This document shows, in pieces, positions 31 through 58,505 of a stretch of DNA of 64,000 bases; the first letter of the stretch is position 1; the number at the start of each line of letters is the position of its first letter. The notes beneath the pieces are model-generated. The model ran no database searches. It saw only the letters and a list, made by a program, of their open reading frames with translations, and was not told the DNA's origin. Both the position numbers and the translations under genes were made by a program. The stretch is from Cymbomonas tetramitiformis (lineage: Eukaryota; Chlorophyta; Pyramimonadophyceae; Pyramimonadales; Pyramimonadaceae). The stretch covers positions 62,001-126,000 of the forward strand of contig LGRX02035013.1 of the NCBI GenBank assembly GCA_001247695.2. The letters are read 5' to 3'.

Positions 31-3000
31 GTGATCGGTGACTCTATGGCAAGGTTATCGGTGACTTTCGAGTCCGAGATAGACAGCGAGGCAACTTCAC
101 TGACGCCCTCACTGACTCAGGCGACTACGGAGGCAGCTACGGTTACGGATATGCTCGAGTCCCTGTTGAACTGCGAGTCCAGACCTTTGACTACCTCGCT
201 GACCTCAACAACTACGGATATGCCCGAGTCCCTGTTGAACCGCGAGTCCAGACCTTTGACTACCTCGCTGACCTCAACAACTACGGATATGCCCGAGTCC
301 CTGTTGAACCGCGAGTCCAGACCTTTGACTACCTCGCTGACCTCAACAACTACGGAGCAGCCAGTCAGCTCAGTCAGTTACGCAGACCTCGCACTCAGGC
401 GTGGCGTTGGACTCGCAGCCTACCAGCCGCATCTTAACCGCAACCTAACAGTCATCGAACCCCCTTCTCAAGCAGATGTCCTCAGCAGAATTCCAGTCAG
501 AAACTTACCTCTGAACTCAGACTCAGTGAACCAGCTTTCTCGCCGGGAGAGGCGCCATCAGAGATGGGAACAGAACCAGCAGCGCCTGGCAGAACAGCGC
601 AGAGCACTCTTCTCTGACCCCGCCTCAGCCAGAACGCCCTCAGATGCCTCTGTCCCCGCACTGAACTCTCAGCATCAATCCCTAATGCAGAATCAGATGA
701 TGTTAGAGGTATCAGAGTACATGCAAAATCTGCATCAGCAAGTGCTCCAACACTATCCGCATCTGACTTCGGTTCTACCAGCAGTGGGCGCTCCACCTAT
801 GACGCCCTACCAGCACACCTTAGGATGGGCGAGCGGTTTACCAGGTGCACCGGCGCCAGCAGCTGGATCAGGTCCCTGGCTGGTACCAGCACCGGCTCAA
901 CCGGTTCCCGCACCGGCTCAACCGGCTCCAGCACCGGCTCAACCGGCTCCGGCACCGGCTCATCCGGCGCCGGCACCATTTCAGCCAGATCCACCGGCTA
1001 CCGGCTCATCGCCTTCTGACTCCGCTGAGCCTGATCAACCGTCACCAGGAAACTCGCCCCCGCCTTCAGACAATGGTGAACCACGACACAGGCGTCTAGA
1101 CGTATTGCTATGGACTTTAGAAGGAGCCTCCTTCTGGTTGAGAAATCACCTGTCCTCTTCCTCCGCAGTTACTGTCAGCCACGGCGCTGAGGCACAATAC
1201 TCTTACCGACTGCCAACCATGCCTGGAAGCGCCAGTCACTTCATAACCGATACCAATCGGATTTGGATGACTATGCGGCACATCGGAGTGGACATCCAAG
1301 ACCTGGCGCAGCATGGGTCAGTGCATACTCCTGTGCGCCTGACTGAGATTGAGGACAACGACGCTTTCACTCTGGAAGTGGAGAAAACGCAAGTGGATGA
1401 AGCGCGGCGTTGCGCGGAAAGCCGTACTGGAACTCAGCAGAGACGCCTGCCCTTGTACTCATGGGTAACCATAGCGGAAAATGCCTTAGAGTCCGAGTTG
1501 ACAGAATTTGACCCCCTGGGACTCCAAATTTGGGCAGCATTTTCATCTTCCGAGGCGTACTTGTTTAGAGGAATGGCGGCTGGCAACCAACCAACTCCCG
1601 CCACAGTACCGGCTAGACTGGGCGTCAACCGGTTTCCCTCTGGTGTTCCCAGCGCAGCAGAGTACAGATCGCCTGGAAATTCCTTGCCAGCGGCCCCGGG
1701 ACTCCTGCCAGTAGACCAGCGCCTTTCTCAATTCCCAGGGCACCACGATCTTATGGGAGCGGCTTCCCCAAGTGATGTCTACCGAGAATCCAAGACAGTG
1801 GCTGATGTGCTCAAGCTGATCAGAGACATTCCTATGTACCCCTCCTCCGCTGACCTAATCACCACTGACGCAGATATTGCCGCGCTTCCACCTTTTTCTG
1901 AAGCGCTGGTCAATTTTCTGTCAATGGGCGTAGTCACCTTCGCCCTGGGTCGCATGAGTGCTTATCGCCTAGACCTAACCATGATCACCATGCCGGAGAT
2001 CTTGAAGGAAGTGGCTCAACGCAAACTACAGCCGCGATCCCTAACTTTTCTCAAGCAAGGTGGAATGATGAACTCGGAGGCCTGGAACCGGCGTTACGCC
2101 ACTTTGGCGCCTTTCCTGGCCGACGTAGCCAGGAGCGTACTGGATGACATCGCGCTGGTAGGACTAGCGGGGACCGTGATGCGCATGGCGCAGCGACGAG
2201 AAGAGACTGCGCGTTTGTTCGCCACTCGTCTGCAAGAGGGATGGAATGGCATCGCGCCCGCTAAGAGGCCCTACAAGATGTCCATGGTGGAGCTGACTCA
2301 ATTGCGAGAACGCCTGGATGAACTCCTGAGCAAGGGCTACATCAGACCTTCCTCAAGTCCGTTCGCTGCACCAGTGCTGATGGTTCCCAAGCCTGGGAAA
2401 CCTGAAGTACTCAGAATGGTCTGCGACTTCCGAGCCATCAACAGCCTGACCGTCAAGGACAAATATCCACTTCCCGACATTCAGCAGTTGTTCGACTCCA
2501 TGCATGGGGCCAAGTACTTCTCCTCCTTCGATGCAGTCGATGGGTTCTGGCAGATGGCTATGGCGTCTGAGGATGTGGAAAAGACTGCGTTCACTTCTCC
2601 CTATGGCTCGTATGAGTGGTTGGTGATGCCCATGGGGTTGACCAACAGTCCTTCATGCTATCAGAGACGCATGCAGCGCGCTCTGGGACATCTTCCTTTT
2701 GTAAGAATATTCCTGGACGATTGTATCCTCTTCAGCAACACCTTGGAGGAGCATCTTTCCCATCTCCAGCAATTTCTCGAAGTCTGTGAGAACCAGGGTA
2801 TCTACCTCAAAGAGTCTAAATGTCAACTATTGCAGACCCAGATACGCTTTCTGGGGCACGTGATCTCACGGGAAGGAAGTCAACCTCAACATGACAAGCT
2901 GGCCGCCATCAGGGACTGGCCCGCTCTGGAAAACGCCACGCATGTGCGCCAATTTTTGGGGTTGGCTGGGTACTACCGGCGGTACATGCTGGGCTTCTCT

Positions 3001-4470
3001 GAAGTAGCACAACCTTTGACTCAGCTCACCAAAGGGGATGTCGCTTGGCTATGGGGACCCATGCAGCGTTGGGCCTTCGAGGAGATTAAGAAGGCGCTAT
3101 GTTCTTCACCCACTCTGGCGCTACCCGATATGAAAGCGGCGGCCGAAGGACGGCATCCTTTCGTGGTACAAACTGACGCCAGTGGAGTGGCACTAGGGGG
3201 AGTACTGATGCAAGACGTAGGAAATGGATTGCAACCTATCGCCTTTGAGAGCAGACAGTTTAATGGAGCCGAGCAGAACTACCATGCTGGCGAAAGAGAA
3301 CTCTGCGCTCTCCATCACTGCACTACGCAAACTTGGCGACACTACCTCATCTGGACTGAGTTCCAATTGCAGGGTGACCACAAGCCCCTAGTCTGGTTAA
3401 TGGCACCCGGACAACCTCTCAGCCGACGCCAAGCCCGATGGTACATGGATCTAGTGGAGGTAGGGGTACCCGAGATGGAGTACATCCCTGGGGCGCTACT
3501 CTGGGTTCCAGACGCTCTGTCCAGGCGACCCGACTACAAGGAAATTTCCGCGAGAGAAGGACTGGTAGAAGCTGGCTTTGTGCATCCGGTTACTGGGAAA
3601 CCGCAGCGACCTCCCTCGGCCGCAGACACTGCCAGCAAGTTTCGACCTGCAGCTGGTAAAGAGTCTCGCCAAGGACGCGCGCCCCTGGGAGTGGTAGATC
3701 CCAACAAGTTGAAGGAGCGCAAGTCCAACAGCGCCAAGACCAAAGATCCTGAACCAGTCCTCGCGTACAGTGGGACTCTCACCTGGATGGACTCCCCTCA
3801 ACTCTGGATGGACGCCTTACATACCCTGCAGCTGGCCGAAACTGGGTACGAGAAAGCAACCCTGGCAGTTCAGACGCGCTCTGGCAAACTGACAGCATCC
3901 TCGCCCCCTTCTCCCAGGAAGACCCCTGTTGATTACTCAGCAACGCCGAAGTGCAGCGAGGCCTCAACCAGACTCCTGGAGCCCAGCGATCGACAGGACT
4001 GGAAGTTCCGTGCGGACATGTTCGACTTCTTGAGTCAAGAATATGGACCTTTCGAGGTGGACGCCTGTTGCGACTTGGGAGGAAAGAATCGTCAGGTCAA
4101 CCGCTACTGGACGGACTGCTTGAAGGAAAACTGGCGAGGGTTGAACGTCTGGTGCAATCCTCCCTTCTCCTCCAACCATTTGACCATCGAGGCCGTACTG
4201 AGGAAATATGTGGAAGAATGGCGTCTGGACCCTGAGAATACTTCAGCTCTCTTCGTCCTTCCTGACTTTCAGTCTCGCATGCCACAGTGGCGGCAGTTGT
4301 TCAGATCTGCGGGAATGAGAGTGGAGTACATTATTCCTACCCATGACGCTCAAGGAGAACCTGTGCAGATGTTCGCCGCCCCGGATGGAGCCCTTCTGGA
4401 TCTTCCTTGGCCCCTGCTAGTGGTGTACGCCCCGCCCAAGGCTTTGCATGAATACGACTATTATTCATGA
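31..4470 (+). CDS. Ty3/gypsy-type polyprotein: Gag-like region, RT, RNase H, C-terminal Dam-like methyltransferase
   Basis: Retrotransposon polyprotein of about 1479 residues. The frame is open to the window's left edge; the first ATG is at 46, so the 5' end may be cut off. The N-terminal third is Ser/Thr-rich and then Pro/Ala-rich and unrecognised. Reverse transcriptase follows from about residue 770, with the YxDD box as FLDD (894-897) and the gypsy tether FLGLAGYYRRY. RNase H shows D1049 (QTDAS), E1090 (AGEREL) and D1116 (QGDHKPL), followed by DALSRRPDY. Where a Ty3 element normally continues into integrase (HHCC, DDE), I see a linker and then a Dam-like adenine methyltransferase domain: FEVDACCD, then NPPF at 1376-1379. 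Gag-RT-RH-MT order resembles DIRS elements, but the RT/RH motifs are gypsy-type. The frame is intact, so the copy may be recent. Confidence 0.9.
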   Translation: MIGDSMARLSVTFESEIDSEATSLTPSLTQATTEAATVTDMLESLLNCESRPLTTSLTSTTTDMPESLLNRESRPLTTSLTSTTTDMPESLLNRESRPLTTSLTSTTTEQPVSSVSYADLALRRGVGLAAYQPHLNRNLTVIEPPSQADVLSRIPVRNLPLNSDSVNQLSRRERRHQRWEQNQQRLAEQRRALFSDPASARTPSDASVPALNSQHQSLMQNQMMLEVSEYMQNLHQQVLQHYPHLTSVLPAVGAPPMTPYQHTLGWASGLPGAPAPAAGSGPWLVPAPAQPVPAPAQPAPAPAQPAPAPAHPAPAPFQPDPPATGSSPSDSAEPDQPSPGNSPPPSDNGEPRHRRLDVLLWTLEGASFWLRNHLSSSSAVTVSHGAEAQYSYRLPTMPGSASHFITDTNRIWMTMRHIGVDIQDLAQHGSVHTPVRLTEIEDNDAFTLEVEKTQVDEARRCAESRTGTQQRRLPLYSWVTIAENALESELTEFDPLGLQIWAAFSSSEAYLFRGMAAGNQPTPATVPARLGVNRFPSGVPSAAEYRSPGNSLPAAPGLLPVDQRLSQFPGHHDLMGAASPSDVYRESKTVADVLKLIRDIPMYPSSADLITTDADIAALPPFSEALVNFLSMGVVTFALGRMSAYRLDLTMITMPEILKEVAQRKLQPRSLTFLKQGGMMNSEAWNRRYATLAPFLADVARSVLDDIALVGLAGTVMRMAQRREETARLFATRLQEGWNGIAPAKRPYKMSMVELTQLRERLDELLSKGYIRPSSSPFAAPVLMVPKPGKPEVLRMVCDFRAINSLTVKDKYPLPDIQQLFDSMHGAKYFSSFDAVDGFWQMAMASEDVEKTAFTSPYGSYEWLVMPMGLTNSPSCYQRRMQRALGHLPFVRIFLDDCILFSNTLEEHLSHLQQFLEVCENQGIYLKESKCQLLQTQIRFLGHVISREGSQPQHDKLAAIRDWPALENATHVRQFLGLAGYYRRYMLGFSEVAQPLTQLTKGDVAWLWGPMQRWAFEEIKKALCSSPTLALPDMKAAAEGRHPFVVQTDASGVALGGVLMQDVGNGLQPIAFESRQFNGAEQNYHAGERELCALHHCTTQTWRHYLIWTEFQLQGDHKPLVWLMAPGQPLSRRQARWYMDLVEVGVPEMEYIPGALLWVPDALSRRPDYKEISAREGLVEAGFVHPVTGKPQRPPSAADTASKFRPAAGKESRQGRAPLGVVDPNKLKERKSNSAKTKDPEPVLAYSGTLTWMDSPQLWMDALHTLQLAETGYEKATLAVQTRSGKLTASSPPSPRKTPVDYSATPKCSEASTRLLEPSDRQDWKFRADMFDFLSQEYGPFEVDACCDLGGKNRQVNRYWTDCLKENWRGLNVWCNPPFSSNHLTIEAVLRKYVEEWRLDPENTSALFVLPDFQSRMPQWRQLFRSAGMRVEYIIPTHDAQGEPVQMFAAPDGALLDLPWPLLVVYAPPKALHEYDYYS
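148..354 (+). repeat. three 69-bp in-frame coding repeats
   Basis: Three tandem 69-bp units (148-216, 217-285, 286-354) encode a 23-residue repeat containing ESLLN.ESRPLTTSLTSTTT in the N-terminal region of the polyprotein. Units 2 and 3 look identical and unit 1 differs slightly, so the expansion is recent. The length keeps the frame. Confidence 0.9.
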
Positions 4471-4770
4471 ATATGAATATGAATACCCCCAAAAATTAAT
4501 ATTCATACTCAAGAGTACGATTGGCATGGTGCATTCATACTCATGAATGTAAAATTTATTTATTATTCATATTCAACTCAAATTACTTAAGTAATTTGAA
4601 TAATACCCCCCTCCAGCCTGCACGCCCCGTCATCCAGTAATAACTCACAGGCTTTCTTGCGACTCACTTTGTGACACTACTGTCTACACTACCCAGATGG
4701 CACCCGCGCAAGTAGAAAAACCTAATTCATACCGTCGGCGTGTCTCTCAGCCGACAAACGAAAAGCCATC
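4471..4770. other. AT-rich spacer with TATTCAT repeats
   Basis: Directly after the polyprotein stop come overlapping copies of TATTCA/TGAATA and short palindromes such as CATTCATACTCATGAATG, up to about 4590. They look like the 3' region of the retroelement or a small repeat. No LTR border can be set because no second copy is in the window. A short ATG frame at 4697 is not continuous with the next gene. Confidence 0.4.
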
Positions 4771-12560: not shown

Positions 12561-12685
12561 AGATGTGCTTTGACCTCAACATGGTCTTCAATTTGGTTTA
12601 TGCTTTACTTTGACATCTACAATCTTCAATCTGGTTTGCTGCCACAGTGCTTTTCAGTAGTTTAGCCCCTACATTCTGGGAAAAC

Positions 12686-13110
12686 CAGAAGACGCGTCTT
12701 CTGAATGTCTTCTGAACGTCTTCTGGAACGTCTTCGGGGTCCAGAAGACATCCAGAAGACGCCCAGAAGACGTCTTCGGCGCGACTTCTAATGTCTACCA
12801 TCTTCTGGTTTCCAGAAGACGGTCAGAAGATCTTCCGGGAAGACGTCCAGAAGTTATCTTATGGACGTCTTCTGTATATCTTCTGGATCCCGGAAGACGT
12901 CTTCTTGATATCTTTTAGGCGTCTTCTGTACATCTTCCCGGAAGATCTTCTGGATGTCTTCTGAAACTCAGAAGATGGTAGACATTAGAAGACGCGTAGA
13001 AGACGTCTTCTAGATATCTTCTGGAACCCAGAAGACATCTTCCGGAATTCAGAAGATGTACAGAAGTCATGCAGAAGACGTTCAGAAGATATCTTCTGAA
13101 TGCCTTCTGC
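12686..13110. repeat. left subterminal GTCTTC/GAAGAC array of element A
   Basis: Dozens of GAAGA/TCTTC cores in both orientations, mostly as CAGAAGACGTCTTCTG-like palindromes spaced 8-15 bp. In CACTA elements such arrays bind the transposase or its partner. A mirror array lies at 18945-19350. Confidence 0.9.
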
Positions 13111-13499
13111 ATGTCTAATAAATTTCAACATTCGTATACGCATTCGCGAGGAATATTTTTAATATTTTTAAATAAGCTTGCAAGAAGGATGAGTGCAAAC
13201 AAGATGTATGGCATAATACACTTCTCGCCATACTTAACAAACATATTCTCAATGTTTGATACACGACAAGAGATGATTTATTTGTGTGGAAGGCTAAGAT
13301 GCTTTGGAGACTAAAATTGCTTTAACAATATTACTTTTCAATCAAGAACCTAATCATAAGGAGGGCCACACATATTATTATCCTAACTAGCTAAGTGTCT
13401 AGAACTACTTCACATTCATGTTCTAAACAACTAGTCTAATTACCTAGAAACGATGTTCATCTAACATGCACACATGGCATAGGTCTTGGACCACGCAAA

Positions 13500-13920
13500 A
13501 ACATGGGTTTTCCACTCGCTCGTTTTTAACCGATCTGAAAAACAACGCACACCAAAATACCAACACTTAGTAGAGTGAAAACACACAATGAATACAAGCA
13601 CAAATTCCTAGGAAGGGTAAGGTAAGTACCTTTACTCTTCTAGTTGTGGGCGATGGGCTGAAAATGCGCTTTTCCCACTTGCTCATTTTCAGCCAATCTG
13701 AAAAACAAAGCGCAACTCAAAACCAAAGGTTAGTAAAGCGGAAAAACACAACGCATAAAGGCAGTATTTTTTAGGTGTGACACTAGGGGATGATAGAGCA
13801 AATACCTTTACTTGTGGTGTTGAGGTTGGGCTGAAAATTTACCTTTTGGACTAGGTCATTTTCAGCCGATCTGAAAAACAAAGCGCAACGCAAAACCAAA
13901 GGTTAGTAAAGCGCAAAAAT
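13500..13920 (-). repeat. three intron-like modules (element A)
   Basis: Three related blocks, with their GATCTGAAAAAC core near 13533, 13695 and 13870. Read on the minus strand each has a branch-point-like TACTAAC, about 30 bases, TTTTTCAG, then ATYGGCTGAAAATG; a donor-like GTAAAGGTA ends two of the blocks. They look like short introns and exons of a minus-strand transcription unit starting near the tRNA-like element. Element B has three equivalent blocks with nearly the same spacing. No continuous protein could be assembled. Confidence 0.5.
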
Positions 13921-13969
13921 AGTACGAGACGAAATACAAGATTACCGAAGGAAAACAAAAAGGCCTAGT

Positions 13970-14040
13970 GGTGTGAGTTGGAATCGAACCAACATCATCT
14001 CGTCCAAAGGACGAGCGAGAACACATGTCTCGTTCACACC
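13970..14040 (-). tRNA. tRNA-like cloverleaf in element A (unusual D-arm and anticodon loop)
   Basis: On the minus strand 71 nt fold into a full cloverleaf: acceptor GGTGTGA/TCACACC, D-stem GAGA/TCTC with 7-nt loop, anticodon stem CTCGT/ACGAG with loop CCTTTGG, 5-nt variable loop, T-arm GTTGG-TTCGATT-CCAAC. All stems pair perfectly. Departures from a canonical tRNA: C instead of U before the anticodon (TTT by position), no GG in the D-loop, no good A box. The B box GGTTCGATTCC is good. A homologous structure with compensating changes is in element B (51684-51750). It may be a tRNA mimic rather than a decoding tRNA. Confidence 0.6.
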
Positions 14041-14338
14041 TCAATTAGACGCTAAGCACGCCGAAGTGCGCGTAAAAAAACCAAGGCACGAAAAGCACCC
14101 GCAATCACTATTGAAGTATTGCGTTGTGCAACGTTTTTCTGTTAGACGAACTATTTTAAAAGGACCACTTCACCCAGCAGCAGTCCGCGGAAAACGAGGC
14201 TGCGGTGGAATTGAGTTGGATGCAGGTGTAAAAGTGGTAGATGCAAATTTCACTTCAACGTTAAATAAAATTCAAACTCGAACGGTCATGTCGATGTGCG
14301 GTGCGGTGCTCGTGCTCACTCCCCTGCGCTGGGCCTGA

Positions 14339-14362
14339 CGATGCGATGCGATGCGATGCGAT
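14339..14362 (+). repeat. GCGAT microsatellite in element A
   Basis: About four to five GCGAT units, followed by looser GACGATGA repeats. Element B has the same motif about 320 bp beyond its tRNA-like gene (52070-52088). Confidence 0.8.
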
Positions 14363-14810
14363 GCTAATGCTAGCTGACGATGAGCATGACGATGACGCCT
14401 GACCACGACCGCGACCACACGCCAGCGCCATACCAGCGCAGCGCAGCGCTGGCAGATTTTCCGGGTTTGCTATCCGCGGTATCGTGCAGTCATCACGTCT
14501 CACGCGACTCACTGCGCGCGTGATCGACTGTTCGACCGTTGCTAGGAGGGATGGTGCTCTAAAACAAGAGCAGTTTCTTCTACCAAATTCGTCGGCCGTT
14601 TTAACTTAGTAACTTGGTACGTTTGCCCCTCTCCCGAACAAACCACTTGTTTTTTTGCACTTCTACCTATACCACACAATTATGCCCAGTATTGTGCACC
14701 TTATATGTTTTTTTGTTTTTTCGCGATTTTTAAAGCTTTTTTCAAAAAAAAAAAACAAAAAGACATACGGAAGACACCCCAGATATCTTCTGTGCATCTT
14801 GTTACCCTCC

Positions 14811-15089
14811 AGAGATGTCTTTGAGGAAGACATGTCTTCTGGAAATCTGCAACTTGTAGAAGTTCCACCGAACGTCTTAACACCCCTCTTAGGGGCGTCT
14901 TCCTCATTTTTTTGACGATCTTCTACGCGTCTTCTAATGTCTACCTAGGCCCTAGGTAGACATTAGAAGACGCGTAGAAGATCGTCAAAAAAATGAGGAA
15001 GACGCCCCTAAGAGGGGTGTTAAGACGTTCGGTGGAACTTCTACAAGTTGCAGATTTCCAGAAGACATGTCTTCCTCAAAGACATCTCT
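14811..15089. repeat. perfect 139-bp-arm palindrome in element A
   Basis: Arms 14811-14949 and 14951-15089 are exact reverse complements with one base between them (14950). Weaker inversion continues outward for about 40 bp. The arms are rich in GAAGAC. The centre reads CTACCTAGGCCCTAGGTAG, whose halves start like the element's own CCCTA terminus. The palindrome lies about 300 bp upstream of the gene start. Confidence 0.97.
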
Positions 15090-15098
15090 AAGACAACC

Positions 15099-15390
15099 GG
15101 AAGATGTACAGAAGATATCTGGGGTATCTTCCGCAAACACAGTCAAGAAGACGTCCGGAAGATGTCAAAAAAATGTCTTCCGCGTGTCTTCTGTGTGTCT
15201 TCCGCGCGTCTTCCGCGCGTCTTTCGCACCTCTTCTGGGTTCAGGAAGACATATATTCCCCGAAGATGTCCGGAAGATGTACAGAAGGTATCTGGGGTAT
15301 CTTCCGCAAGCACAGTCAAGAAGACGTCCGGAAGATGTCGGGAAATGTCTTCCACGTGTCTTCTGAGTGACTTCTGAACGTCTTCTGAGT
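15099..15390 (+). repeat. direct repeat with GAAGAC motifs upstream of the A gene
   Basis: A block of about 70 bp starting CGGAAGATGTACAGAAG at about 15099 recurs at about 15262 with few changes. It ends with TTTGTCTTCAG, a plausible splice acceptor before the gene's first ATG. Confidence 0.75.
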
Positions 15391-15720
15391 GTTTGTCTTC
15401 AGGATGCCCTCCGCACTACCTTGGCCAAGTGTCCTTTGTATAGGAGATAGAATGGCAAGTAAACGTGCCGCGCATCTCCAAAAGGGGGAAGCGCCCCCAA
15501 AGACCAAAATGTCGTCCTTCAAACGAGCGATGCTCACTAAACCCCCCCCCGAATCCGCGGCGGAGGTCTTCCGTCAATCCAAGCCGGAGGTCTTGAAGGG
15601 GAAGATGGCAGCGGTGCACGATTGGTTGTCTACGGTGTCGCCATCCCGCGAGCTGGACCATGAGATGCCGGCATGGCTCGGGGAATCCGTCTACATTCAT
15701 GAGCATTCCCCTGCGACAAG

Positions 15721-15874
15721 GTGCTTGCTTGTCTCCATAACCCACATGCATCTATCATGCACATTTATGCAGTTTGGAATGCATACAACCGAAGATGTGT
15801 GGAGCATCTTCTGCGCAACTTCCGGACGTCTTCCATGTGTCTTCTATGAATTCACCATCACAATGTTTTCGCAG
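15721..15874 (+). other. motif-filled intron of the A gene (example)
   Basis: Intron from AAG|GTGCTT to TTCGCAG|GGCTGAAG, joining SPAT-R-AEDHED in phase. It contains GAAGATG, CATCTTC, CGTCTTCC and TGTCTTC, the same cores as the subterminal arrays. Introns 17292-17381, 17894-18010 and 18312-18430 are similar. Confidence 0.75.
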
Positions 15875-16499
15875 GGCTGAAGATCATGAGGACGCGGTTC
15901 GTATTTGCGTGCCGCGTCAAAGCAACCGGCCACCTTTCGGCTTAGCCGAGCCCACTAATGTGCTTTTCTCGGTTCAAGAGTTTTTTGGCTATGTGCAAGA
16001 AATTTCAGACTTGCATGAACCGGGCTTTAAGGAGCATACGTGGGAGGACATTTTCTCCGATCCATTGGACTTGGCCGATGATCCGGGCACGGTGCACTTT
16101 CGACAACATAAGTGGCTGCTTGAGCCTCCCATTGGCGTCAACCTCCAAGGAATGGTGTTGAAGATACGGGATGCAATCGCATCGGGCGAACCATATCATC
16201 GTCCTCCGGAGCTTGTGAGTGATGGGGATAGGCGGATGAATCCGCAAAGGCTTTCACCTTCACCTCCGGCCCCGATGGATGAAGTTGTGGACATGACCTA
16301 TACCGAAGTCCATGAGCCCGAGGACCCTCCCCCGGAGATGCCAACACGAAGGTGCGAACCGGTTGCCACGGCATGCCCGTATCTCCATGAAAGATGTATG
16401 CCTGCACGCTCCATCGGAAGTCGTTCCGAAGACGTTCCGAGCGTCTTCTGCGCATCTTCCGGGCTCATGGACTTCGGTAAATCTAACGTAGAGCAAAAT

Positions 16500-16985
16500 G
16501 ACAATAGCAGAATCTGAAATCAAGCATTCCAAAACTGAAATCTGAAATCCACCGTAGAGCAAAATCAGCCAAAACTGAAAATCGGAAATCTAATGTGGAG
16601 CAAAATGACACATATAAAAATCTGAAATTGGTTTGTAAAATCTGAAATCAAGCATTCAAAAAAACTGAAACCTGAAATCTAATGTAGAGCAAAATCAGCC
16701 AAAATTGAAATTTGGAAAATCTAACATAGAGCAAAATGACAAATGCAAAAGTCTGAAATGGAGCATTCCAAAAACTGAAAACTGACATCCAACATAGAGC
16801 CAAATTAGCCAAAATTGAAAATCGGAAATCTAACGTAGAGCAAAATGACAAATGTAAAAAAATCTGAAATCAAGCATTCCAAAAACTGAAATCAGAAAAC
16901 TAACGTAGATCAAAATTAGTTGAGATTGAAAATTTGGAAATCTAACGTAGAGCAAAATGACATATGTAAAATTGCACTTTCGCAT
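16500..16985 (+). repeat. AT-rich tandem repeat inside the A gene
   Basis: Degenerate units built from GTAGAGCAAAATGACA, AATCTGAAATC and AAGCATTCCAAAAACTG, alternating over about 45-105 bp. They occupy what is probably a large intron or a deletion scar. Confidence 0.8.
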
Positions 16986-18944
16986 TTTCCCTTCAATTTC
17001 AACAAATGCAACAATCTTGATTATTGCTAATTAATTACAAATGGTCATCACAAATCACAATGGTCAAATGGGGGCAAGGCCATAAGAAGATGTTGCGTCC
17101 GAACGGCACGAACACCGGACCGAAGACGCTCAAGTGTCACGAAGGCGTTGAAAATGCTACAAGCGGGCATCATGAGCGTGCTAGCGTCTTGGGATAGAGA
17201 CGAGGGCTACTCGAAAAACATGCTTGAAGACTTGATCGGGCAGTTGACGGTCATAACGAGAGAGCTCACTTCGGAGCTTGTAGACTGTAAGGTACGGAAG
17301 ACATCTTGAAGACATCCCGAATACGTTCCGAGTACATTCCAAACGTCTTCCTTAATTACCTTTTATTTGGTGATTTTGCAGGATGTTCCTAAGCTTCAAA
17401 ATCTGGTGGATGAGTTCTTCAAGTCACTCGAGCGCGATGGCTCACCTGACCGGCTGGTCATCAACACGCATTTGCTTTCCCACTTCCCCGACCAACTCCT
17501 CATGTATGGTCCAATACGGGGGACATGGATGTACGTGTTCGAATCATTCAACGGGAAGATTCGAAGGTGGGTGAAGAACAACAATGCATATCCGGTTCAG
17601 AGTGTTATGCAAGGCTTCGGGCGGTACCGGATGGTACATGTGGTGCGAGGGTTAATCTTGGTACTTCGTCGCCGGCGGGAGGCAACCACCAATCCCACCC
17701 GGCCACCCGTGCTCCGGTTCTTGACCACCGCACCGTTGAGGGCGCCGAACACCGTGGTTTTGGGAACACAAGGCAAGCGCCATGTACTCTCCCGCGCTGA
17801 AACGAAAGCGCTGGAGCTGTGGATGCATGGCAACGTGCCCCAATACCGCAAGTTGAAGGCAAAATTCGACGACTACGTCACCTACTGCAAGAGGTAAGTA
17901 AGAAATGAAACCCATAAGGTGCCTGGAAGACGTTTCATATATCTTCTAGGCATCTTCCACACGTCTTTGGTAAATACATGTCCTGACACTGTGCACGTAT
18001 ACATTCGCAGGGAAAACCATATGGTTCGGAGACGTATTGGCGCACATGCCGGAGGGTCTCGCCTGATGGATGTGCCGTTGCATATGCACGGTAGCGACCC
18101 CAAGGTCTGGCTGGGGAGACCATTCACGGAGAATGAAGCGGCACTCGTCGAAGGGCCTCCTCGCGTGTGTCAATCTTTCGGCTCGGTCGTGGTTCGAGGA
18201 GTTTGCTATCGCACGGCAGCTCAGGACAAGACGAAGAAAACTTGTCAACGTTACTTCCGAGCCTTTTTCTCTGGAGAAACATCAAAGGCCCGAGGAAATC
18301 GAGACTGACCGGTGCGTCCGTGCATTACGTTTTGGTGAATGTGCGCAGAATATGTACCGAATGTCTTCTGCGTGTCTTCTCGACGTCTTCGGGGATTCTT
18401 ACTATAGAGTATTGTGGCTCCAACTCGCAGGTACGCCATGGTAGATAGCATCTACAAGGTCGACTTGGCCGCGAAAGAGTACATTCTTGTGAAGGGAAAG
18501 TGGTTCCCCGAATTCAACCAAGCGACGACAAAACGGTTTGCCAAGCTAAACTCGAAGTACGGGCCGGACAATACCGCAAAGGTGGTGTACACATACGACC
18601 CGGATGATCCCGAGACACCTTGGGACACTACTGATCCATTTATCCTGGCGGCTCAAATTGAACACCAAGTTGTAATCAAGAAACATCCTGTGATGAAGAC
18701 GGCGGTGGTATTTGATTTAAAGGCTGACTTTTTCGAGTGCATCGACGATGATGGTTCACGACCGAAAGGTGCAAGACGCAAGCAAGAGGCGATCATACAT
18801 GCGTGATAATACGCCGGGCATCGTACTTAGTGGTCTGTATGTTGAATAGATGCAATCGTACATGTATGTGTAGATAGACCTATCAATTAACTTAGCCGTA
18901 TATTATGTATCATAGCAACAGAGCATGACGACAACCCTGAAGTT

Positions 18945-19350
18945 GTTAGGAAGATACCTGGAATGTCTTCCGCATGTCTTCCGTGCGCCTTCTGAATGTC
19001 TTCTGTGATTACGCGACTAGTGTACGTGTGGTATGAAGTAGCTATGTGGCCAAATTGCATAATCATCACATATGTGTCGATAACACATGTCAGAATGTAT
19101 TCTGGCCCAGAAGACATTCGGAACATCTTCCGGGTATCTTCCGGGAAGACTGCCCTTTGCATGTCTTCCGGGAAGATGTCTTCCGAAATCCGGAAGACAT
19201 TCCGCACATCTTCGGCACGTCTTCCCCGAAGAGTGTCTTCTGGTTTCCAGAAGACGTTCCACTCAGAAGACGTCTTCTGGAAACCAGAAGACATCATTTC
19301 TACGAAGACGTCTATAAGACGTTCAGAAGACGTCTTCTAGACGTCTTCTG
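18945..19350. repeat. right subterminal GTCTTC/GAAGAC array of element A
   Basis: Dense GAAGAC/GTCTTC cores in both orientations (for example CAGAAGACGTCTTCTAG), interrupted by about 110 bp of unrelated sequence near 19015-19120. Mirrors 12686-13110. Confidence 0.85.
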
Positions 19351-19545
19351 ATTTTCCCAGAATGTAGGGAGCAGGACCTGAGTACCTGTATATTTCTGCA
19401 CTTGTGCCGGCTAGAGGGTTTCAATTTGTGTATCAGAATGGCACAGTTGAATTAGCAGTTAGGTTTGTCACCCTAGCTCCTACCCTAACTTATCTTGACT
19501 TATCTGACTTACCTGTCAGTCACCACCCACAGTGCTGGGGTGGTG

Positions 19546-48579: not shown

Positions 48580-48985
48580 AGACTATTGAGAATAAATGAA
48601 TCTCGATCGTCGTCTAAAAACCTTCATTTTGACACAATTTTCGTCGTCTAAAAGTTATTGCCACGTCATCTGAAATGTGTCACGTAAGCGACACGTAAGC
48701 GACACGTAAGTCGTCCCGCAATTTTTATTACAAAATATTACTCAAATTATTTATTTGTGCATGATGCTTTCGTACTCGGCGAGTCCCGGTAGATTTTTTT
48801 GTTGCATTTTTGTTCATATGCGTGCATATCATGTACAAGTATGCAAATATGGGTACATCCATGTGCAATTTAGGTCAGCATGCACGGTACACGTTTATGA
48901 ATGTGCGTATTCAGGTGCTTCAATTTCCGTAAAACAAGTTGCAACTGAGATGGATACTAGCATATGATACACAAATCTATATCAT
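48580..48985 (+). repeat. dispersed repeat R, copy 1
   Basis: About 400 bp highly similar to 61690-62095 (GAATCTCGATC, CGTCTAAAAACCTTCATTTT, CACGTAAGCGACACGTAAGC, TGCATGATGCTTTCGTACTC). Its last part (from 48840) is also the start of the tandem unit at 49980, and it includes the equivalent of the element B target site. Confidence 0.9.
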
Positions 48986-49979: not shown

Positions 49980-50089
49980 TATGCAAATATGGGTACATCC
50001 ATGTGCAATTTAGGTCAGCATGCACGGTACACGTTTATGGATGTGCATATTCGGATGCTTCAATTCCCAGAAACCCTACGTTTCTGGAC

Positions 50090-50890
50090 GCGTGCAATAC
50101 ATCGTATTGAACACATATTGCAGGCATATTGCACGCGTATTGACAATAAATGTTCAATACAATAAAAAATGTTACAATATGTGTGCAATATGCCTGCAAG
50201 CGCTCCAACATGTGTTCAACATAGTATTGCAGTGAGCCCTCATGTATTGGAGACATATTGAAGTTCTGATGCAGAGAGTTATTTCAATATGCCTTCAACA
50301 CATGTGTAGTATAGGGTTGGAGACATGCACCATGCATGTCGCAAACACTATGAAGGCATGTTGCAGACATATTGTATACATATTGTAAGTCAACATTCAA
50401 TATGTTGGATACACACTGCGGACATATTGCATACGTATTGAACATGTAAATTCAATATGTTGTATATATATTGTGGACCTATTGAATATGTATCGAAACG
50501 GAACATTCAGTATGTTGGATACATACTGCGGACATATTGCATACGTATTGAACATGTAAATTCAATATGTTGTATATATACTGTGGACCTATTGAATATG
50601 TATTGAAACGGTACATTTAGTATATTGGATACATAATGCGGACCTATTGCATACATATTGAACATGAAAATTCAATATGTTGTATATATATCGCGGACAT
50701 ATTGCATATATATTGAAACGGAACATTCAGTAAGTTGGATACATACTGCGGACCTATTGTATACGTATTGAACATGCAAATTCAATATGTTGTATATATA
50801 CTGTGGACATATTGCATATGTATTTGAAATAAAAGTTGCCTATGTTGGATATATATTATAGACCTATAGCATACATATTGCACATTTGCA
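50090..50890. repeat. left subterminal array of element B, including 110-bp tandem units
   Basis: CAATATG/CATATTG and related cores (GTATTGAACAT, ATATTGCATACG) throughout. From 50405 to about 50850 there is a higher-order tandem repeat of exactly 110 bp (TTGGATACAYACTGCGGAC at 50405, 50515, 50625, 50735). Confidence 0.92.
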
Positions 50891-51063
50891 ACATGCAGTG
50901 TGTTCACTATGTTTCCACTATGCGTATGCTATGCGAGATAAACAAAATAAGAATAGTAGGGAACACTCGAGCATCTTTACTACGATTAACATGTATCTAG
51001 CTAGGCAGAAAGGAATACGAATGGGACTATCAAATTTTATCATACCAACGAATACACAAAATA

Positions 51064-51135
51064 ATGTTCTACTCGTGCACTTTCTATTTACAATACGCAA
51101 AATGATGTTCTACTCGTGCACTTTCTATTTACATG
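51064..51135 (+). repeat. 41-bp direct duplication
   Basis: ATGTTCTACTCGTGCACTTTC followed by TATTTACA occurs at 51064 and again at 51105. Confidence 0.85.
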
Positions 51136-51219
51136 ATGCCAACCTAAAATCAATGTATCCATCTAGAACGCTTGACGGGATGCTTGAAGTTGACGTTGTA
51201 CTCGAGGCGGTCGATTTTC

Positions 51220-51625
51220 TCCATCTCGCTTCGCTCCAAAACAACCGATCTAAAATGGAAAGTAAAGAGCCAACACTTAGTAAAAAAGCGGAAACGCACA
51301 AAAGAATATTCTATTCAAAACATAAAGGACTTATCAACCTAGAATGTTTGAAGGGATGCTTGAAGTTGACGTTGTACTCGAGGCGGTCGATTTCCTCCAT
51401 TTCGCCCTCCTCGAAAACAGCCAATCTGAAAAGGAAAGTAAAGAGCCAACACTTAGTAAAAAGCGGAAAAGCACAAAATAAACCTTTATTGAAAACATAA
51501 TTAACAACGGAGCAACCTCAAATAAATGCGAATATGAACGCGAGATGAAAACCTAATATGACTTCGCCACGCGAACGTTTTCAGCGGATCTGAAAAACGA
51601 AACCAACCAACTAACGTTTAGTAAA
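51220..51625 (-). repeat. three intron-like modules (element B)
   Basis: Counterparts of the element A modules, cores near 51245, 51423 and 51588. On the minus strand: TTTACTAA, about 30 bases, TTTYCAG (or TTTTAG), ATYGGYTG. Modules 1 and 2 then encode the near-identical peptide MEKIDRLEYNVNFKHPVK / MEEIDRLEYNVNFKHPFK and end at donor-like AG|GTTG in the second. This suggests a small, probably spliced minus-strand product. Function unknown. Confidence 0.5.
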
Positions 51626-51683
51626 GAAGAAAGAAATTAGCAGTCGTCAACGAAAGAAGCAAAGGAAAGTAAAAGGGGGATGT

Positions 51684-51750
51684 GGAGTGAGTTGGATTTG
51701 AACCAACTATATCGAGTGCAAAGGACTCGCGGGAATTTCCCGTTCACTCC
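51684..51750 (-). tRNA. tRNA-like cloverleaf in element B (3-nt D-loop)
   Basis: 67 nt on the minus strand: acceptor GGAGTGA/TCACTCC, D-stem GGGA/TCCC with a 3-nt loop AAT, anticodon stem CGAGT/ACTCG with loop CCTTTGC, 5-nt variable loop, T-arm GTTGG-TTCAAAT-CCAAC. All stems perfect. Compared with 13970-14040, one acceptor pair, one D-stem pair and two anticodon-stem pairs changed on both sides. The same non-canonical features recur: C before TTT, reduced D-loop without GG. Confidence 0.6.
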
Positions 51751-52390
51751 CTAGTCAAAGTTTCACGCATGCCAAGTATGAGCGCGCGAAGCACACACAA
51801 AATAATACACACGCATAACCAAAACATGCACTGCAAACCAGTGCCATATTGCAACCTGTGAGAATTAAAAATATCACAGCACGCAACTCACTGGTGAGGC
51901 TGCTGCAACACTGCTGACGGCGAACTGTGAAGAGTGCAATAACGTGAGTTTGAACTTGACCGTTCAGAAAATTCGAAGTGCTCAAAAACTTTCCCTGCCG
52001 TTCAGAAGTCACATCGGATCGACTCGTCATCGTCATGCGAGCACGATCGACGATGACGACGATGATGACGATGCGATGCGATGCGATGTCTCAGACTCTC
52101 AGTGACATTGCATCAATAACATATGTAAAAAGAAATACGCATAAGGATACCAATCCATTGTAATGGTGTAGTGGTCGAGCGTCGATCTTTCAACCTTGGT
52201 GAGGTGATGGGATCGAGTCCCAATGTAGGGTTTTTCCAGACCATATTTTGGACCATTTCGGGGGGACTTCTTGAGTATTTTGGGGGTACTTCTTGAGTTA
52301 CGAATTCGGCCGTTCGATTCACGAACGAGGGGTGCAGATTCTCCTAAAAATTAAAATTCCAAAATTGTTTCCCCGAAAATCGTTCAATCT

Positions 52391-52632
52391 GTTCAATACT
52401 ACTGCAATACGTGAGGGCTCACTGCAATACGCGACCGCTTGCAGGCGTATTGAAATGGCGTATTGGAGATGGGTCGAAAAAGTGCCAAGTCAGTTTTGCG
52501 AAGATCCGTCTGACGTGGCACTGGCAAAGCTGACATCAGCAGTTTTCAATACATCTCCAATACGCCATTTCAATACGCCTGCAAGCGGTCGCGTATTGCA
52601 GTGAGCCCTCTTGTATTGAAGTAGTATTGAAC
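52391..52632. repeat. 81-bp-arm inverted repeat in element B
   Basis: Arms 52391-52471 and 52552-52632 match in inverse with three mismatches. They contain GCAATACGCGACCGCTTGCA and GTATTGAAATGGCGTATTGG. It lies at the same relative place as the element A palindrome. Confidence 0.95.
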
Positions 52633-52724
52633 AGATTCTCCTCTAAAAAGTTTTTTAAATTTTTGTAAAGGCCAATATGCGTGCAACCGCGTGCAACCGC
52701 CTGCAGAGCTCAAGGCAGGGATCA

Positions 52725-52805
52725 CTTCAATACGTGAGGGCTCACTTCAATACGTGAGGGCTCACTTCAATACGTGAGGGCTCACTTCAATACGTGAGGG
52801 CTCAA
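52725..52805 (+). repeat. 20-bp tandem repeat
   Basis: Four units of CTTCAATACGTGAGGGCTCA, flanked on the left by GAGCTCAAGGCAGGG and on the right by CTTGAGCCCTGCC, which are inverse to one another. Confidence 0.92.
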
Positions 52806-53960
52806 GACCTTGAGCCCTGCCTTTAGCCCCCCCGTTCAGTATGCTGCGGAAGTGTTGAAGTGAGCCCTAAAAAAGTTGAAAAAACATGTTCTTCAATTCT
52901 GGTGAGACTTGTTATATGGACTCAGGAGCTATATTTTGCGACATAGCTTGTGTGCGTTTTTTGTGGGGGGGTCCGAAAACCTACTTTTGGGTTATTGCTT
53001 TACTTGAAAGTTCCTTCAGCATATCGTCAATATGTCCGCAGTATATGTCCAATATATTACAGCATAGTTGCAGTACATTTTCGAAGGGTGATGGGCGTGG
53101 TAAAGGGGACTTCAATGCAGTATGGTCCGAGGAGATCAAATTGTTCATGGTGAAAAGCGACCTCGCCATGAACGATCCCCTCAATCATCATCACCAAGTG
53201 ATGCGGAGCGACATCGAACCGGCTTGCCTTCGGCTAGAGCCGCCGCCCTCGTCCAAGGGAAGGCGGCCCCCCCCCGTACAACAATCTTCGTTAGCCAAGC
53301 GCGCGATGAGAAATCCCGCGCAAGGCGGGTGCTTAGCCGATCGAGAGCCGATCAAACCTTCCAATGCTCAGGAGGGTACATCCCTCAAACCCCCTCCCAA
53401 TATCAAGCTCATATTCCCGGAAGGTTGGAGTACCGCGGAAGGCTTCCGCGACCCGGAGTATGAAACGATTACGAAGAAGGAACGCCTTTTGGCGTGGATT
53501 GCGCCTCCACATCTTCCAATATCTACGAGGGAACTGGAGTTGTCCGCGAGGTAGCACCCTTTCTCTTTCTTCTCGACGTTGAGGTTGTGTCTTTCTTGCT
53601 TCACAGGACTCTTTGCTACATGTATGCAACATGGTTACCATATGTTGCATACATATTGAGATTATATTGTAGGGATCCTGGAACACATTGCATGAAAGTC
53701 GATGCGCACTATGTGGAAGTGGACACGGTATGGCATCATAAGTGGCTGCCAACGCGACTGCTCCCGCACGATTTCTCCAGATTGGCGCACGATTTATCTC
53801 CAGACAATACCGCGTGGCCGACTTGGTTACCACCTTCCGACATCTTGGAGCTAGAACCGGCAACGGTAACCTTTAAGGGGAAATCGTTTCGACTTGTTCC
53901 ACCGGTGCCTAATTGCTTGCAACGGATTGTCGAAAGGATTCGTGGCATGCAAGAGGCAAG

Positions 53961-54862
53961 GTAAGGGACTCTCGCGGGGCATGATTTCCCTCCCACCATT
54001 CCTCACGTGGCTCGCTGCAATAGTGCTGCAGCACGCTATCGTGATGGTTGCAGCATGTTGATGGGATGCTGAACACATGTTGGGACGATATTGTGCAGAG
54101 ATGCGGGCGAGGCGCCCCCCGAGGCGTACGAGGCCCAAAGCAAGGAGTCCCCCCCGCCGCCCAATGCTGAGGCACCCACGAGCCCTCCACTAGCCGGCGG
54201 GAGTGCAAGGTAAGGGACTCTCGTGGGGCATGGTTTCCCTCCCACCATTCCTCACGTGGCTCGCTGCAATAAGTGCTGCAGCACGCTATCGTGATGGTTG
54301 CAGCATGTTGATGGGATGTTGAACACATGTTGGGACGATATTGTGCAGAGATGCGGGCGAGGCGCCCCCCGAGGCGTACGAGGCCCAAAGCAAGGAGTCC
54401 CCCCCGCCGCCCAATGCTGAGGCACCCACGAGCCCTCCACTAGCCGGCGGGAGTGCAAGGTAAGGGACTCTCGTGGGGCATGGTTTCCCTCCCACCATTC
54501 CTCACGTGGCTCGCTGCAATAGTGCTGCAGCACGCTATCGTGATGGTTGCAGCATGTTGATGGGATGCTGAACACATGTTGGGACGATATTGTGCAGAGA
54601 TGCGGGCGAGGCGCCCCCCGAGGCGTACGAGGCGCACGAGGGGCATGCTTTAGATGGGACCATCGGAAGTAGCATGCCTGACTTGCGGGCATCCTCAATG
54701 TCGACTAGTTCATCGTCCATATCGAAGAGCTTTTCCAGGTGATACATCTCATCATGTTTCCTTGCCTACTTGCTTTAGCCGTAACTATGTTGCAGCACGC
54801 TATCGTGATGGTTGCAGCATGTTGATGGGATGTTGGAAACATGTTGGGACGATATTGTGCAG
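53961..54862 (+). repeat. fourfold intron-plus-exon cassette
   Basis: Introns 53961-54098, 54210-54348, 54460-54597 and 54739-54862 end with the same about 90 bp (GTTGCAGCATGTTGATGGGA ... ATTGTGCAG). Each is followed by an exon starting AGATGCGGGCGAGGCGCC. Exons 1 and 2 are both 111 bp and near-identical, and exon 3 is 141 bp; all are phase-symmetrical, so the duplications kept the frame and lengthen a Pro/Glu/Ala-rich linker. Confidence 0.9.
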
Positions 54863-56434
54863 AGATGCGGGCGAGGCGCCCCGCGAGGCGCACGAGGCGG
54901 CAAATTCAGCTGGTTTAGACGACGGCAGGTACTATTTCGGGATTCCTGGATTCATTGATGTAGTCATTGTTGACGCGGAACGTAGTCCTCACCAATTTCC
55001 ACTTGACGTTACCCCCGAGGGAGACAACCTACCATCGAATGCGGAAGAAGCCTACGACTTCTTCGAAGCTCATCAAGCAATTTTGACACCGATCCGTATG
55101 GAAACTGTTGTCTACCTAGTACACGATGGCAACTTCGAGGCGACTACATACGGCTCGCTGCTGCCCGACGACTCTCAACTCGATAATCCTACACGAGACA
55201 ATGTGCGGGAGGTTCGGTGCCTTGGGCGACATTGGAGGAGCGTTTCGACAATAAATGATTGGCCAGATTTGATCCGTGCGGTTGGAGTTTGGTCTTTAAT
55301 TGCGGTTACCACGGATGCCATGGCTGCCGAGATGGAAGAGCCCATGAGGTATGTACGAATATTTAGGCACCTCAACTTGCATACTGATTTTTCATGATAT
55401 AATATGTTGCAATATATCAGAAACCGTTGCCGGTATATTGAATATGTATGGGAGATATACTGCGGTGGGCGAAGCAGATCTCCGGTGGAAGAGCCAGCTG
55501 AGGCGAAGGACACCGAGATGGGTGAGGTGAAGGACACGGCGGGCGAAGCCGATCCTTGGCTCTCGCTCCATGCAATGCATCGTCGAAATGTGGGCACCGT
55601 AACATTGGAGCGAGGGCGGTTTCTATGTGATTGTACCATGTGCTACGGAGTTGACCTACGTGGAAACGTGGTGAGCAAGGCCACCCGCACACGACATCGG
55701 AAACTCCACGGGCAGATCCAGCCACCCGCAACGGACCCTGAAGAAATCGATGCTGTAGTGTGTAGTTTGTGGCAACCGCGGCGAAACCTTAAGGTAGTCT
55801 ACGCCCTTTCTCTCCCATGAATGATTGGGCAAGCTTGCGTGACAACACATTCGCAATATGTTGACAACGTGTTGAAGGTGCATTGCAACTCTCCTACAGA
55901 CATACGAATGTGGACGTCACGATGGATGACAAGGAGGGCGAACATGCTGAGGAAGCCGGGAGGACAAGCGCAGAAGGCGAGGTGGTACACGCACAACAGG
56001 ACGTGGAAGCCAAGGATGTGTCGAGTCAAGGCGGCGAGGCCGGAGTTCCCGACGACGAGGATGGCGATGCGCCTAAGACCGAGGATGCCGATGGTGAGAC
56101 CAAGGATGGCGGTGGGGAGGATTTGGGGTTCGATGAAGAAGACGACGGAGATGCCGTCCACTCCGTTAAAGCAGCGATTGCTACACAATTGGAAAGTATT
56201 GTGAATGCTGACCATGCTCTTGAACCGAGAAAGAGCTACTGCCGGCCGTGTCCCGCGGGCTTTGATGGCGGGCCCCGCTCCCGGCATCGTGGTCACTACC
56301 TTCGGGGACAAGGGCAAGCCATTGGAGCTAACGTCCTTGGAGATTGACCAACTGACCCGCTGGATGCGAGCGAGTATTCCCGCTTACCGAGAGCTTTTTC
56401 AACAACATGCTGAGTACGACCTGTTCCGGCGGAG

Positions 56435-56553
56435 GTGCAACCTGCAAGCTCGCACGCATGTACTATCTGTAGTATACCTGCAACATATTGTCAACTTGTT
56501 TCTGTATGTTTATCATATATTGTAAGTATACTAAGAATATGTTGTCATCACAG
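56435..56553 (+). other. motif-filled intron of the B gene (example)
   Basis: Donor GGCGGAG|GTGCAA, acceptor CATCACAG|GGAGAAT. Contains CAACATATTG, CATATATTG and GAATATGTTG, the subterminal motif of element B. Same position and phase as intron 17894-18010 in A. Confidence 0.8.
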
Positions 56554-57499
56554 GGAGAATGCCGCGCGCTCTAAACATGCAAATAGGTACCGACAAGAGG
56601 TGGGTGGCGTGCCCGCGATCGCGTTCGGTCCATTGGAGGACCCTGAAGGATGGCTTGGTCGTCAATACACGGCTTACGAGAAGTCGCTCATGATGGGTCC
56701 CGAACCCATGTGTTCCAAGTACAACAAGGTGAACATCGGCGGTGTCTTCTATCGCACTAGAGACGGGGACAACGGGAAAGTGACAACCCAGTGTTTCGTC
56801 CGCGCATCCTTCCCCAAGAATGATGCCGATGCCGATGACGAGTGGGAGGACAGGTACGACCTCAACCACCAGTTTGCATGCTTCTTTGCCTTTTCGTATA
56901 TCTCTGCAACATATATGCAATACGTCCCCAACATATTGAGGATATGTTGTACGTATATTACAAAAACATTGAACATTTCGTGCGCAGGTATGGTATCATC
57001 AACGCCATTCTGCGGGTTAGCATTGGCGGTGTGCTCTACACTTTTTTAAAGTGTGATTGGCTACCCGTGCCCACGGAAGCTCAGATCGCAAGCTTCAAGC
57101 TGAAGAACTCCATCCTCGGCGTGGACAAGGTGTCCAAGGCTTACTACACCTTCAACCCATGGGACACCTCCAAGTACACTATGGACAACCGAGAGCCCTA
57201 CCTACTGGCCAATCAAGTCCAAGCGCAAGTAGTGATAGTCAAACACCCCTGCATGGATTCAGCGGTGATACTTGATACGAGCGACCGCAATATGGAGAAA
57301 CTTGCACTCGTTGATAGGCCCGTAGGTAGTGATGGTCACTTTGACACATGCGGGAAGTGTAGAGTCGGTGGCGAGCTCCTTCTGTGTGAGAGGGCAGGCT
57401 GCAAAGAGGCTATGCACGTGCGATGCGCAGGGCTCACCGACATCCCCACTGGAATGTGGTACTGCAGAAAGTGTGATGACGCATAGTAGTGCCTCTGTA

Positions 57500-58260
57500 C
57501 ACATTTGATATACCTGTAATATACCAGATACGTATTGCGGACATATTGTAAGTATTATGCAATATGTGAGCAGCAGGGGGGTCTTACCCCTTTACCCCAT
57601 GCAGTCATGTGTTGCATAATTCACTCTGATTGTAGACATATTGCACATGTACTAAAGATATTCTGCATGAGGGAATGTTTCAATATGTGTTCAACACATA
57701 TATTGCAAACGTGTTGAATGATTCATCTGATTGTAGACATATTGCACATGTACTAAAGATATTCTGCATGAGGGAATGTTTCAATATGTGTTCAACACAT
57801 ATATTGCAAACGTGTTGAATGATTCATCTGATTGTAGACATATTGCACATGTATTGAACGATTCCTTATGCGTGAATGTTTCAACATGTGTTCAACACAT
57901 GTTCAGTACGTGTGTTGCAGGCGGTTGCAGACATATTGAACACCCCTCCAATCGTTTTGCCTTATTTCAATACATCGGGGCCCCAATTCAAAAAGCCCCC
58001 CAGAACCGACTTCTGCGATACGCGTCCAAATGCCGTGAAAACTTGTCCCCATAACGCTAGACCCTTCCTTAGATGATACCAAGTGCTAGTGGGTGAGTCT
58101 GACACCATTTGGGTGCCCATGCTAGCATACTCATTTTCGCTGTGTCCAGGCTGATCGCGGTTCAATAGTTTGGCCAATATGTTACACGTGTATTGGAATG
58201 TCCAGATATTAGCATACCGTCTTCAATATGCCTCCAATATGCCTCCAATACGTGTTCAAC
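57500..58260. repeat. right subterminal array of element B with 101-bp units
   Basis: CAATATG/CATATTG cores; a tandem repeat of about 101 bp starts GATTGTAGACATATTGCAC at 57628, 57729 and 57830. An unrelated stretch (about 57960-58150) interrupts it before the end array. Confidence 0.88.
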
Positions 58261-58505
58261 ACGTGTATTGAACCCGTCTAGAAACGTAGGGAAAACAAGT
58301 TGCAACTGAGATGGTCACTAGCATATGATACACAAATCTATATCATCATACAGATTTAATCTATATACACCAAATAATTGTCTAGGATGTCTAGGAGCAC
58401 ATAAATAAGGGTAAGTGTTGGTGTATTAAGCTAGCAGAATAATACATTAGTGTAAGTAATGTGAACTTGCAAATATAAAAGACTGTACACAAGCGTATAT
58501 GTTTC

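Follow-up and report, generated by a model that had tools for sequence, protein, structure and literature searches.

VANDAL transposons are Mutator-like elements with a Mutator-like transposase and a longer target duplication. In Arabidopsis, the protein VANC21 is enriched in noncoding parts of VANDAL21 (introns, intergenic DNA and termini), and VANC6 of VANDAL6 has a motif different from that of VANC21 (Hosaka et al. 2017, PMC5735166, accessible part of the text). Among CACTA elements, TnpA is an activator of Spm and is linked to demethylation (cited by Sasaki et al. 2023, PMC10398659, accessible part), and the soybean CACTA papers describe motif diversity at the element ends (PMC2613891, PMC4219821, accessible parts). 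As far as these excerpts go, the subterminal repeats of En/Spm (TNPA) and soybean Tgmt*/TgmR* elements are held to be bound by a protein of the element, and the motif is described at the ends, with no statement found there on units in the elements' own introns. The excerpted text of a study on CACTA transposase introns (PMC4158355) did not yield the word 'subterminal', and no report of an end–intron motif coupling in CACTA elements or in algae was found in a search of an open-access collection.

The window analyzed here (the whole stretch of 64,000 nucleotides, from Cymbomonas tetramitiformis) contains two CACTA-like transposons, A (12667–19369) and B (50074–58291), which are DUF4218 relatives and in which the motif of the ends recurs in the introns of the transposase gene. 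The initial annotation knew of no description of such a coupling; VANDAL21 with VANC21 is one (PMC5735166, accessible part), and the kind of coupling is thus already known from Arabidopsis, the Cymbomonas case lying in another superfamily and a distant host. As in VANDAL21 and VANDAL6, as far as the excerpts describe them, a short motif, often in tandem, occupies introns, intergenic and terminal noncoding DNA and changes between related elements. The Cymbomonas elements differ from the Mutator-like VANDALs in being CACTA-like, in their prasinophyte host, in an 11-bp phased lattice and in at least five motif classes; furthermore, the binding and demethylating protein is known for VANDAL (PMC5735166, PMC10398659, accessible parts), whereas for Cymbomonas there is a candidate protein only. 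They share the superfamily, the 3-bp duplication, the subterminal repeats and the variation of motifs among subfamilies of one host with En/Spm and soybean Tgmt*/TgmR* (PMC2613891, PMC4219821, accessible parts). The Cymbomonas elements add another superfamily, and a green alga distant from land plants, to the cases in which the motif of the ends also occupies the introns and varies in both places together. The presence of several families in one genome makes protein–site coevolution and the separation of selfish elements directly testable, and the finding cautions against taking the introns of a transposon gene for neutral sequence.

Element A (6.7 kb, plus strand) has the terminal inverted repeat (TIR) CCCTACATTCTGG and is flanked by AGC on both sides, and element B (8.2 kb, plus strand) has the TIR CCCTACGTTTCTGGACG and is flanked by AAA on both sides, the 3-bp target site duplication expected of CACTA (En/Spm) elements. 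Both also carry subterminal repeat arrays, a further CACTA feature. We call them CACTA-like because both TIRs start with CCCTA, not CACTA. Over 44% of the A query and 58% of the B query, identity to the annotated proteins CYMTET_53377 and CYMTET_53384, respectively, is 100%. In the A gene, PF13960 (DUF4218) is found in a middle exon (E-value, 1.3e-4; 22.3 bits, below the Pfam cut-off of 27), while the relative P0006 contains PF02992 and PF13960, and P0009 contains PF02992 (TNP2-type transposase, Transposase_21 with DUF4218). Genome copies exceed both Pfam cut-offs, so that the families have a TNP2-type transposase, and comparison with these relatives shows that the TNP2 core is absent from the A and B copies. 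As DUF4218/Transposase_21 relatives with 3-bp duplications, A and B are distinct from elements with a VANDAL (Mutator-like) transposase. The B protein had no match among the viral contigs, and A exon 4 had no relative among the genome contigs. Viral-contig matches to the A TIR and GTCTTC-array queries (L001–L013) were set aside on motif layout alone; two of these IMG/VR contigs, L007 (9343–9436) and L013 (268 onward), carry GTCTTC/GAAGAC arrays. The target repeat of B also occurs without the insert near 62034, as an empty-site-like paralogue. Its source is a dispersed repeat, two copies of which contain 11-bp CACGTAAGCGA repeats, at 48681–48710 and 61781–61813; a third element candidate in the window, based on these repeats (48681 and 61781), was rejected because by eye it resembled a dispersed repeat rather than an intron-bearing gene.

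The left subterminal array of A (12667–13118) and its right array with the TIR (18946–19369) together hold 57 RTCTTC/GAAGAY cores in 876 bp, and an internal array upstream of the transposase gene (14760–15403) holds 31 in 644 bp. Within the internal array, two perfectly matching arms of 139 nt, separated by a single nucleotide, form an inverted repeat (14811–15089), reflecting either a recent origin or an assembly fault. The gene itself (15404–18806, plus strand) is a remnant with the DUF4218 middle exon, a broken frame and no TNP2 core. Intron 1 (15721–15874) contains four motif units, and three each are present in the 5' part of intron 2 (16352–16484, borders uncertain), intron 3 (17292–17381), intron 4 (17894–18010) and intron 5 (18312–18430). 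Each of them is enriched in the relaxed core (P ≤ 0.002 against 1000 dinucleotide shuffles). The initial annotation had described the A introns as packed with the motif; this applies to the relaxed core, with three or four copies per intron, and is weaker for strict GTCTTC/GAAGAC in intron 4 (one copy, P = 0.052). Pooled, the relaxed core occurs 16 times in 613 bp of introns versus 9 times in 2214 bp of exons (26 versus 4 per kb; P = 6e-6). The supposed intron 2 combines three parts: the start of a true intron, a repeat rich in AT and, from 17061 on, what reads by eye against P0004/P0009 as a remnant transposase exon. The AT-rich part (16485–17060), a 111-bp tandem repeat sitting where the transposase core was lost, has no motif core in 576 bp.

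In element B, the left subterminal array of RTRTTG/CAAYAY units (50074–50900), an internal array upstream of the gene (52390–52860; 16 CAATAY/RTATTG in 471 bp) and the right array with the TIR (57520–58291) enclose a plus-strand gene with nine introns, of which three are tandem copies of one exon–intron unit. Relaxed units number four in the GT..AG intron at 53551–53672; three, four and three in the tandem introns (53961–54098, 54210–54348 and 54460–54597, in the triplicate of 53961–54597); five at 54739–54862; three at 55349–55477; four at 55794–55899; four at 56435–56553, in the position and phase of A intron 4; and five at 56854–56987, in those of A intron 5. Every intron is thus rich in relaxed CAAYAY/RTRTTG (three to five; P = 0.001–0.038 per intron). 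The word 'packed' of the initial annotation suits this relaxed core better than the exact word CAATAT/ATATTG, with one or two per intron (12 in 1149 bp; P = 0.005–0.23 per intron). The pooled relaxed core occurs 35 times in these 1149 bp versus 7 times in 3237 bp of exons (30 versus 2 per kb; P = 1.5e-14), and the observation that exons are largely free of the motif was borne out in both elements. The last exon (56988–57486) ends in a PHD finger (PF23011, E-value 8.3e-8; PF00628, 2.5e-5) not seen in A, possibly a chromatin-reading module in a transposase.

The cores of A (RTCTTC) and B (RTRTTG) differ at two of six bases, and no strict core is exchanged between the introns of the two elements: those of A contain no strict and one relaxed B core, and those of B contain no A core. 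The pooled intron enrichment reaches P = 0.0005 in A and in B, the floor of 2000 dinucleotide shuffles. Furthermore, the intron units lie on an 11-bp lattice, i.e., one helical turn. Among same-strand pairs no more than 40 bp apart, the spacing is a multiple of 11 bp in 9 of 9 cases in A and 19 of 22 in B, and converging units are spaced by 4 + 11n bp in all 7 pairs of A and 14 of the 16 pairs of B (one of the three tandem introns of B used); among 20,000 random placements, none equalled any of these four counts. Multiples of 11 bp were also found for same-strand pairs in the further (sub)families B2 (7/8), P7 (11/13), C (4/9) and G (33/34) described below; the F introns show no lattice (0/3). 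Three-unit modules are found 39 times in the window for A (≤3 mismatches; 0.21 expected) and 34 times for B (≤2 mismatches; 0.09 expected), and at the coordinates listed all A-type modules lie inside A and all B-type modules inside B.

Genome copies, with at least 150 places for each of three probes, yielded five more (sub)families, B2 (L052), C, P7 (L042), F (L043) and G (L062 and L064). For two of the probes, the places scored were 150 each out of 2080 and 2936 candidates. The loci were chosen non-randomly, by score spread and contig room; they comprise 43 stretches (L022–L064) and eight loci (L014–L021), the latter and L063 entering no count. Eight further A-type stretches all contain intron 5 with three units, six contain intron 4 with four units, and one is without the right array. 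The two orthologous introns are present in 10 and 9 of ten B-type stretches, with three to six units each, and the right array in seven of the eight with a placeable 3' flank; in the eighth, another element has apparently been inserted, by look. The 20 copies of C, whose exons are 91–100% identical to those of L032 and which are counted as one family, have 312 strict units in 21,674 bp of introns versus 1 in 44,879 bp of exons, and G has 30 cores in 1043 bp of introns versus none in 1797 bp of exons; these densities, and those of P7 and F, are partly circular, since the four cores were picked with ends and introns in view. Introns are richer than exons in their own motif in B2, P7 and F as well, and hence in all seven (sub)families. 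In G, the first intron is built largely of tandemly arrayed units, and the first C intron (L032) is without the motif. Beside C copies, arrays of TGCTAA at 11 bp (L030, 2000–6700) and of GGACCC at 21 bp (L039, 2500–4500) were seen, perhaps belonging to other families.

Free of this circularity are 6-mer models trained on the ends only, one for each of the seven (sub)families, and scored on all introns. The end stretches for C (1–700 and 9080–10000 of L032), P7 (428 bp) and G (1083 bp of L064) were defined as array stretches and not from TIRs, those of P7 and G following the stop; G introns were from L062 and L064. The true pairing of introns and ends was the best of all 5040 pairings, with own-family z-scores of 12.8 (A), 9.1 (B), 4.7 (B2), 13.0 (C), 4.6 (P7), 7.2 (F) and 18.2 (G), whereas exon scores ranged from −0.9 to 4.1. 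With the additional copies and families, this upholds the proposal that the motif switches in ends and introns together, and neither of the two refuting outcomes named in the initial annotation (introns no denser than exons, or no agreement of introns and termini in other copies) was observed. Of the seven intron sets, five score highest with the model of their own ends; B2 introns score highest with the model of its sister B, which has the same core, and P7 introns with that of F (5.5; A model, 5.1; own model, trained on 428 bp, 4.6). Conversely, five of the seven end models score their own introns highest, while the B2 model prefers B introns and the P7 model G introns.

Introns 4 and 5 are older than the motifs that now fill them. 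A, B, B2, F and C have intron 4 at the same site and in the same phase, and the corresponding P7 intron, its border set by eye, fits as well. Intron 5 likewise agrees in site and phase among A, B, B2, P7 and G; at this place C lacks an intron, and the F copy has an out-of-frame join. Because these families differ in motif, both introns must predate the present motifs and have been refilled in each family. The refilling is unlikely to be plain copying from the ends, against which two observations argue. In G, the units of ends and introns agree in their core and differ in their spacer: 14 of the 18 at the ends read CCCTATGGA, those in the introns mostly CCCTATGC (A or T). GA follows CCCTATG in those 14 units, but in no unit of the 26 listed for introns. 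In addition, the longest exact matches between introns and their own ends, where any of at least 8 bp exists, are 9–20 bp; the 20-bp match, in G, covers two units, and the others are 9–17 bp. The first C intron has no exact match of at least 8 bp to its own ends. The initial suggestion that the introns are the origin or the outcome of motif expansion is therefore disfavored as far as plain copying from the ends is concerned. Within family C, intron units diverged less than the comparison in L033 (4.7% versus 9.2%, P = 0.047) and in L028 (5.2% versus 9.1%, P = 0.089), with no difference in L035 and L041, which is only suggestive of constraint; a P value of 0.004 from a first test was dropped as partly due to ascertainment, its symmetric version being weak.

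We consider it probable (roughly 0.6) that a family-specific DNA-binding protein encoded by the element binds to the 11-bp units; the lattice points toward such putative sites. Each family would encode its own sequence-specific binder, comparable to TNPA of Spm/En or VANC of VANDAL. The terminal arrays would serve transposition, and through those upstream and in introns the same protein would sit on the gene and regulate its expression or prevent its silencing, anti-silencing being about as likely as autoregulation. The arrays would be placed in introns because coding exons cannot hold them. When the specificity of the protein shifts, the units in all compartments would be replaced, with the one-turn spacing kept. 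A candidate for the protein is the product of a second, divergent gene of C on the minus strand (open frames 3048–2275, 2062–1400 and 1166–756 of L032), which is without a convincing Pfam match and combines an acidic stretch with a basic tail resembling a nuclear signal; with borders set by eye, two of its three likely introns contain eight cores, one contains none, and its exons contain four. The binding reading is weakened by this missing match, by the noncoding DNA at background for the motif (the minus-strand stretches of A and B, the first C intron and one intron of the second C gene), by the weak constraint on units in C, by the P7 scores and by the lack of a lattice in F. More tentatively, and at somewhat less than even odds, we propose that the elements are operator systems as a whole, in which the element's own protein reads the 11-bp phased unit at the termini, in front of the gene and in almost all transposase introns. 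Such a system would have arisen apart from the Arabidopsis VANDALs and would shift specificity by coordinated unit replacement, and the coexistence of at least five motif classes in the genome would let families avoid cross-activation.

Alternatively, the units may multiply passively wherever coding constraint is absent, by slippage, gap repair or conversion, and have no function in the gene. The tandem triplication in B, with intron–intron matches of up to 42 bp, the tandem array of the first G intron with its 20-bp two-unit stretch common with the ends, and the weak constraint on units are all compatible with such spread, and the motif regions of VANDAL21 likewise expand as tandem repeats (PMC5735166, accessible part). 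Nevertheless, we regard it as rather unlikely, given the difference between end and intron spacers in G, the shortness of the remaining intron-to-end matches, and a spacing that stays at 11 bp while the core varies. Neither is the motif found in all noncoding DNA. It is at background in about 1.5 kb of each element, namely in the minus-strand stretches in the left halves of A (no RTCTTC in 1641 bp) and B (5 relaxed cores in 1489 bp), which speaks against passive spread if these stretches are truly unconstrained.

A role of the units in RNA, as pre-mRNA splicing signals or hairpins, is improbable. Many introns do contain converging units able to pair (GAAGAY, with RTCTTC 15 bp later), and among 12 introns folded (one of the three B tandem copies included) folding is below the shuffle mean in 10, with z < −1.9 in 2 and a mean of about −1. 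However, this tilt is modest (z from −2.5 to +0.9), the units occur in both orientations and in corresponding arrays at the ends and upstream, and the 11-bp spacing is without evident reason in RNA. A soybean transposase bound to subterminal repeats of an intronic CACTA element has been proposed to block splicing, a precedent that acts from DNA (PMC4219821, accessible part). Still less credible is an introner-like gain, in which inserted terminal-like DNA of the element made the introns, even though units make up most of the first G intron and some prasinophytes are known for introners. Introns 4 and 5 are no insertions at new positions, sharing site and phase despite different motifs, and the units of A and B lie inside the introns, away from most splice sites. 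Chance or base composition might be considered since the B motif and several B introns are AT-rich and single strict cores are individually weak, but it is refuted by the pooled shuffles in both elements, the lattice and the recurrence in seven (sub)families.

In the minus-strand stretches of A (13110–14780) and B (50880–52400), short pieces resembling exons recur, by eye, together with strong intron signals (TTTACTAAC and TTTTTCAG), the element motif being at background. Both elements also carry tRNA-like sequences in minus orientation, at 13969–14040 in A and 51683–51750 in B, scoring 38.3 and 41.6 bits in a local Rfam tRNA search; neither ARAGORN nor an Rfam search of the whole window detected them. 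No tRNA-like sequence was found in the C copy L032 (ARAGORN, whole; Rfam, 600–4600). The stems of the A and B sequences differ, and the anticodon-like loop CCTTTG is common to both.
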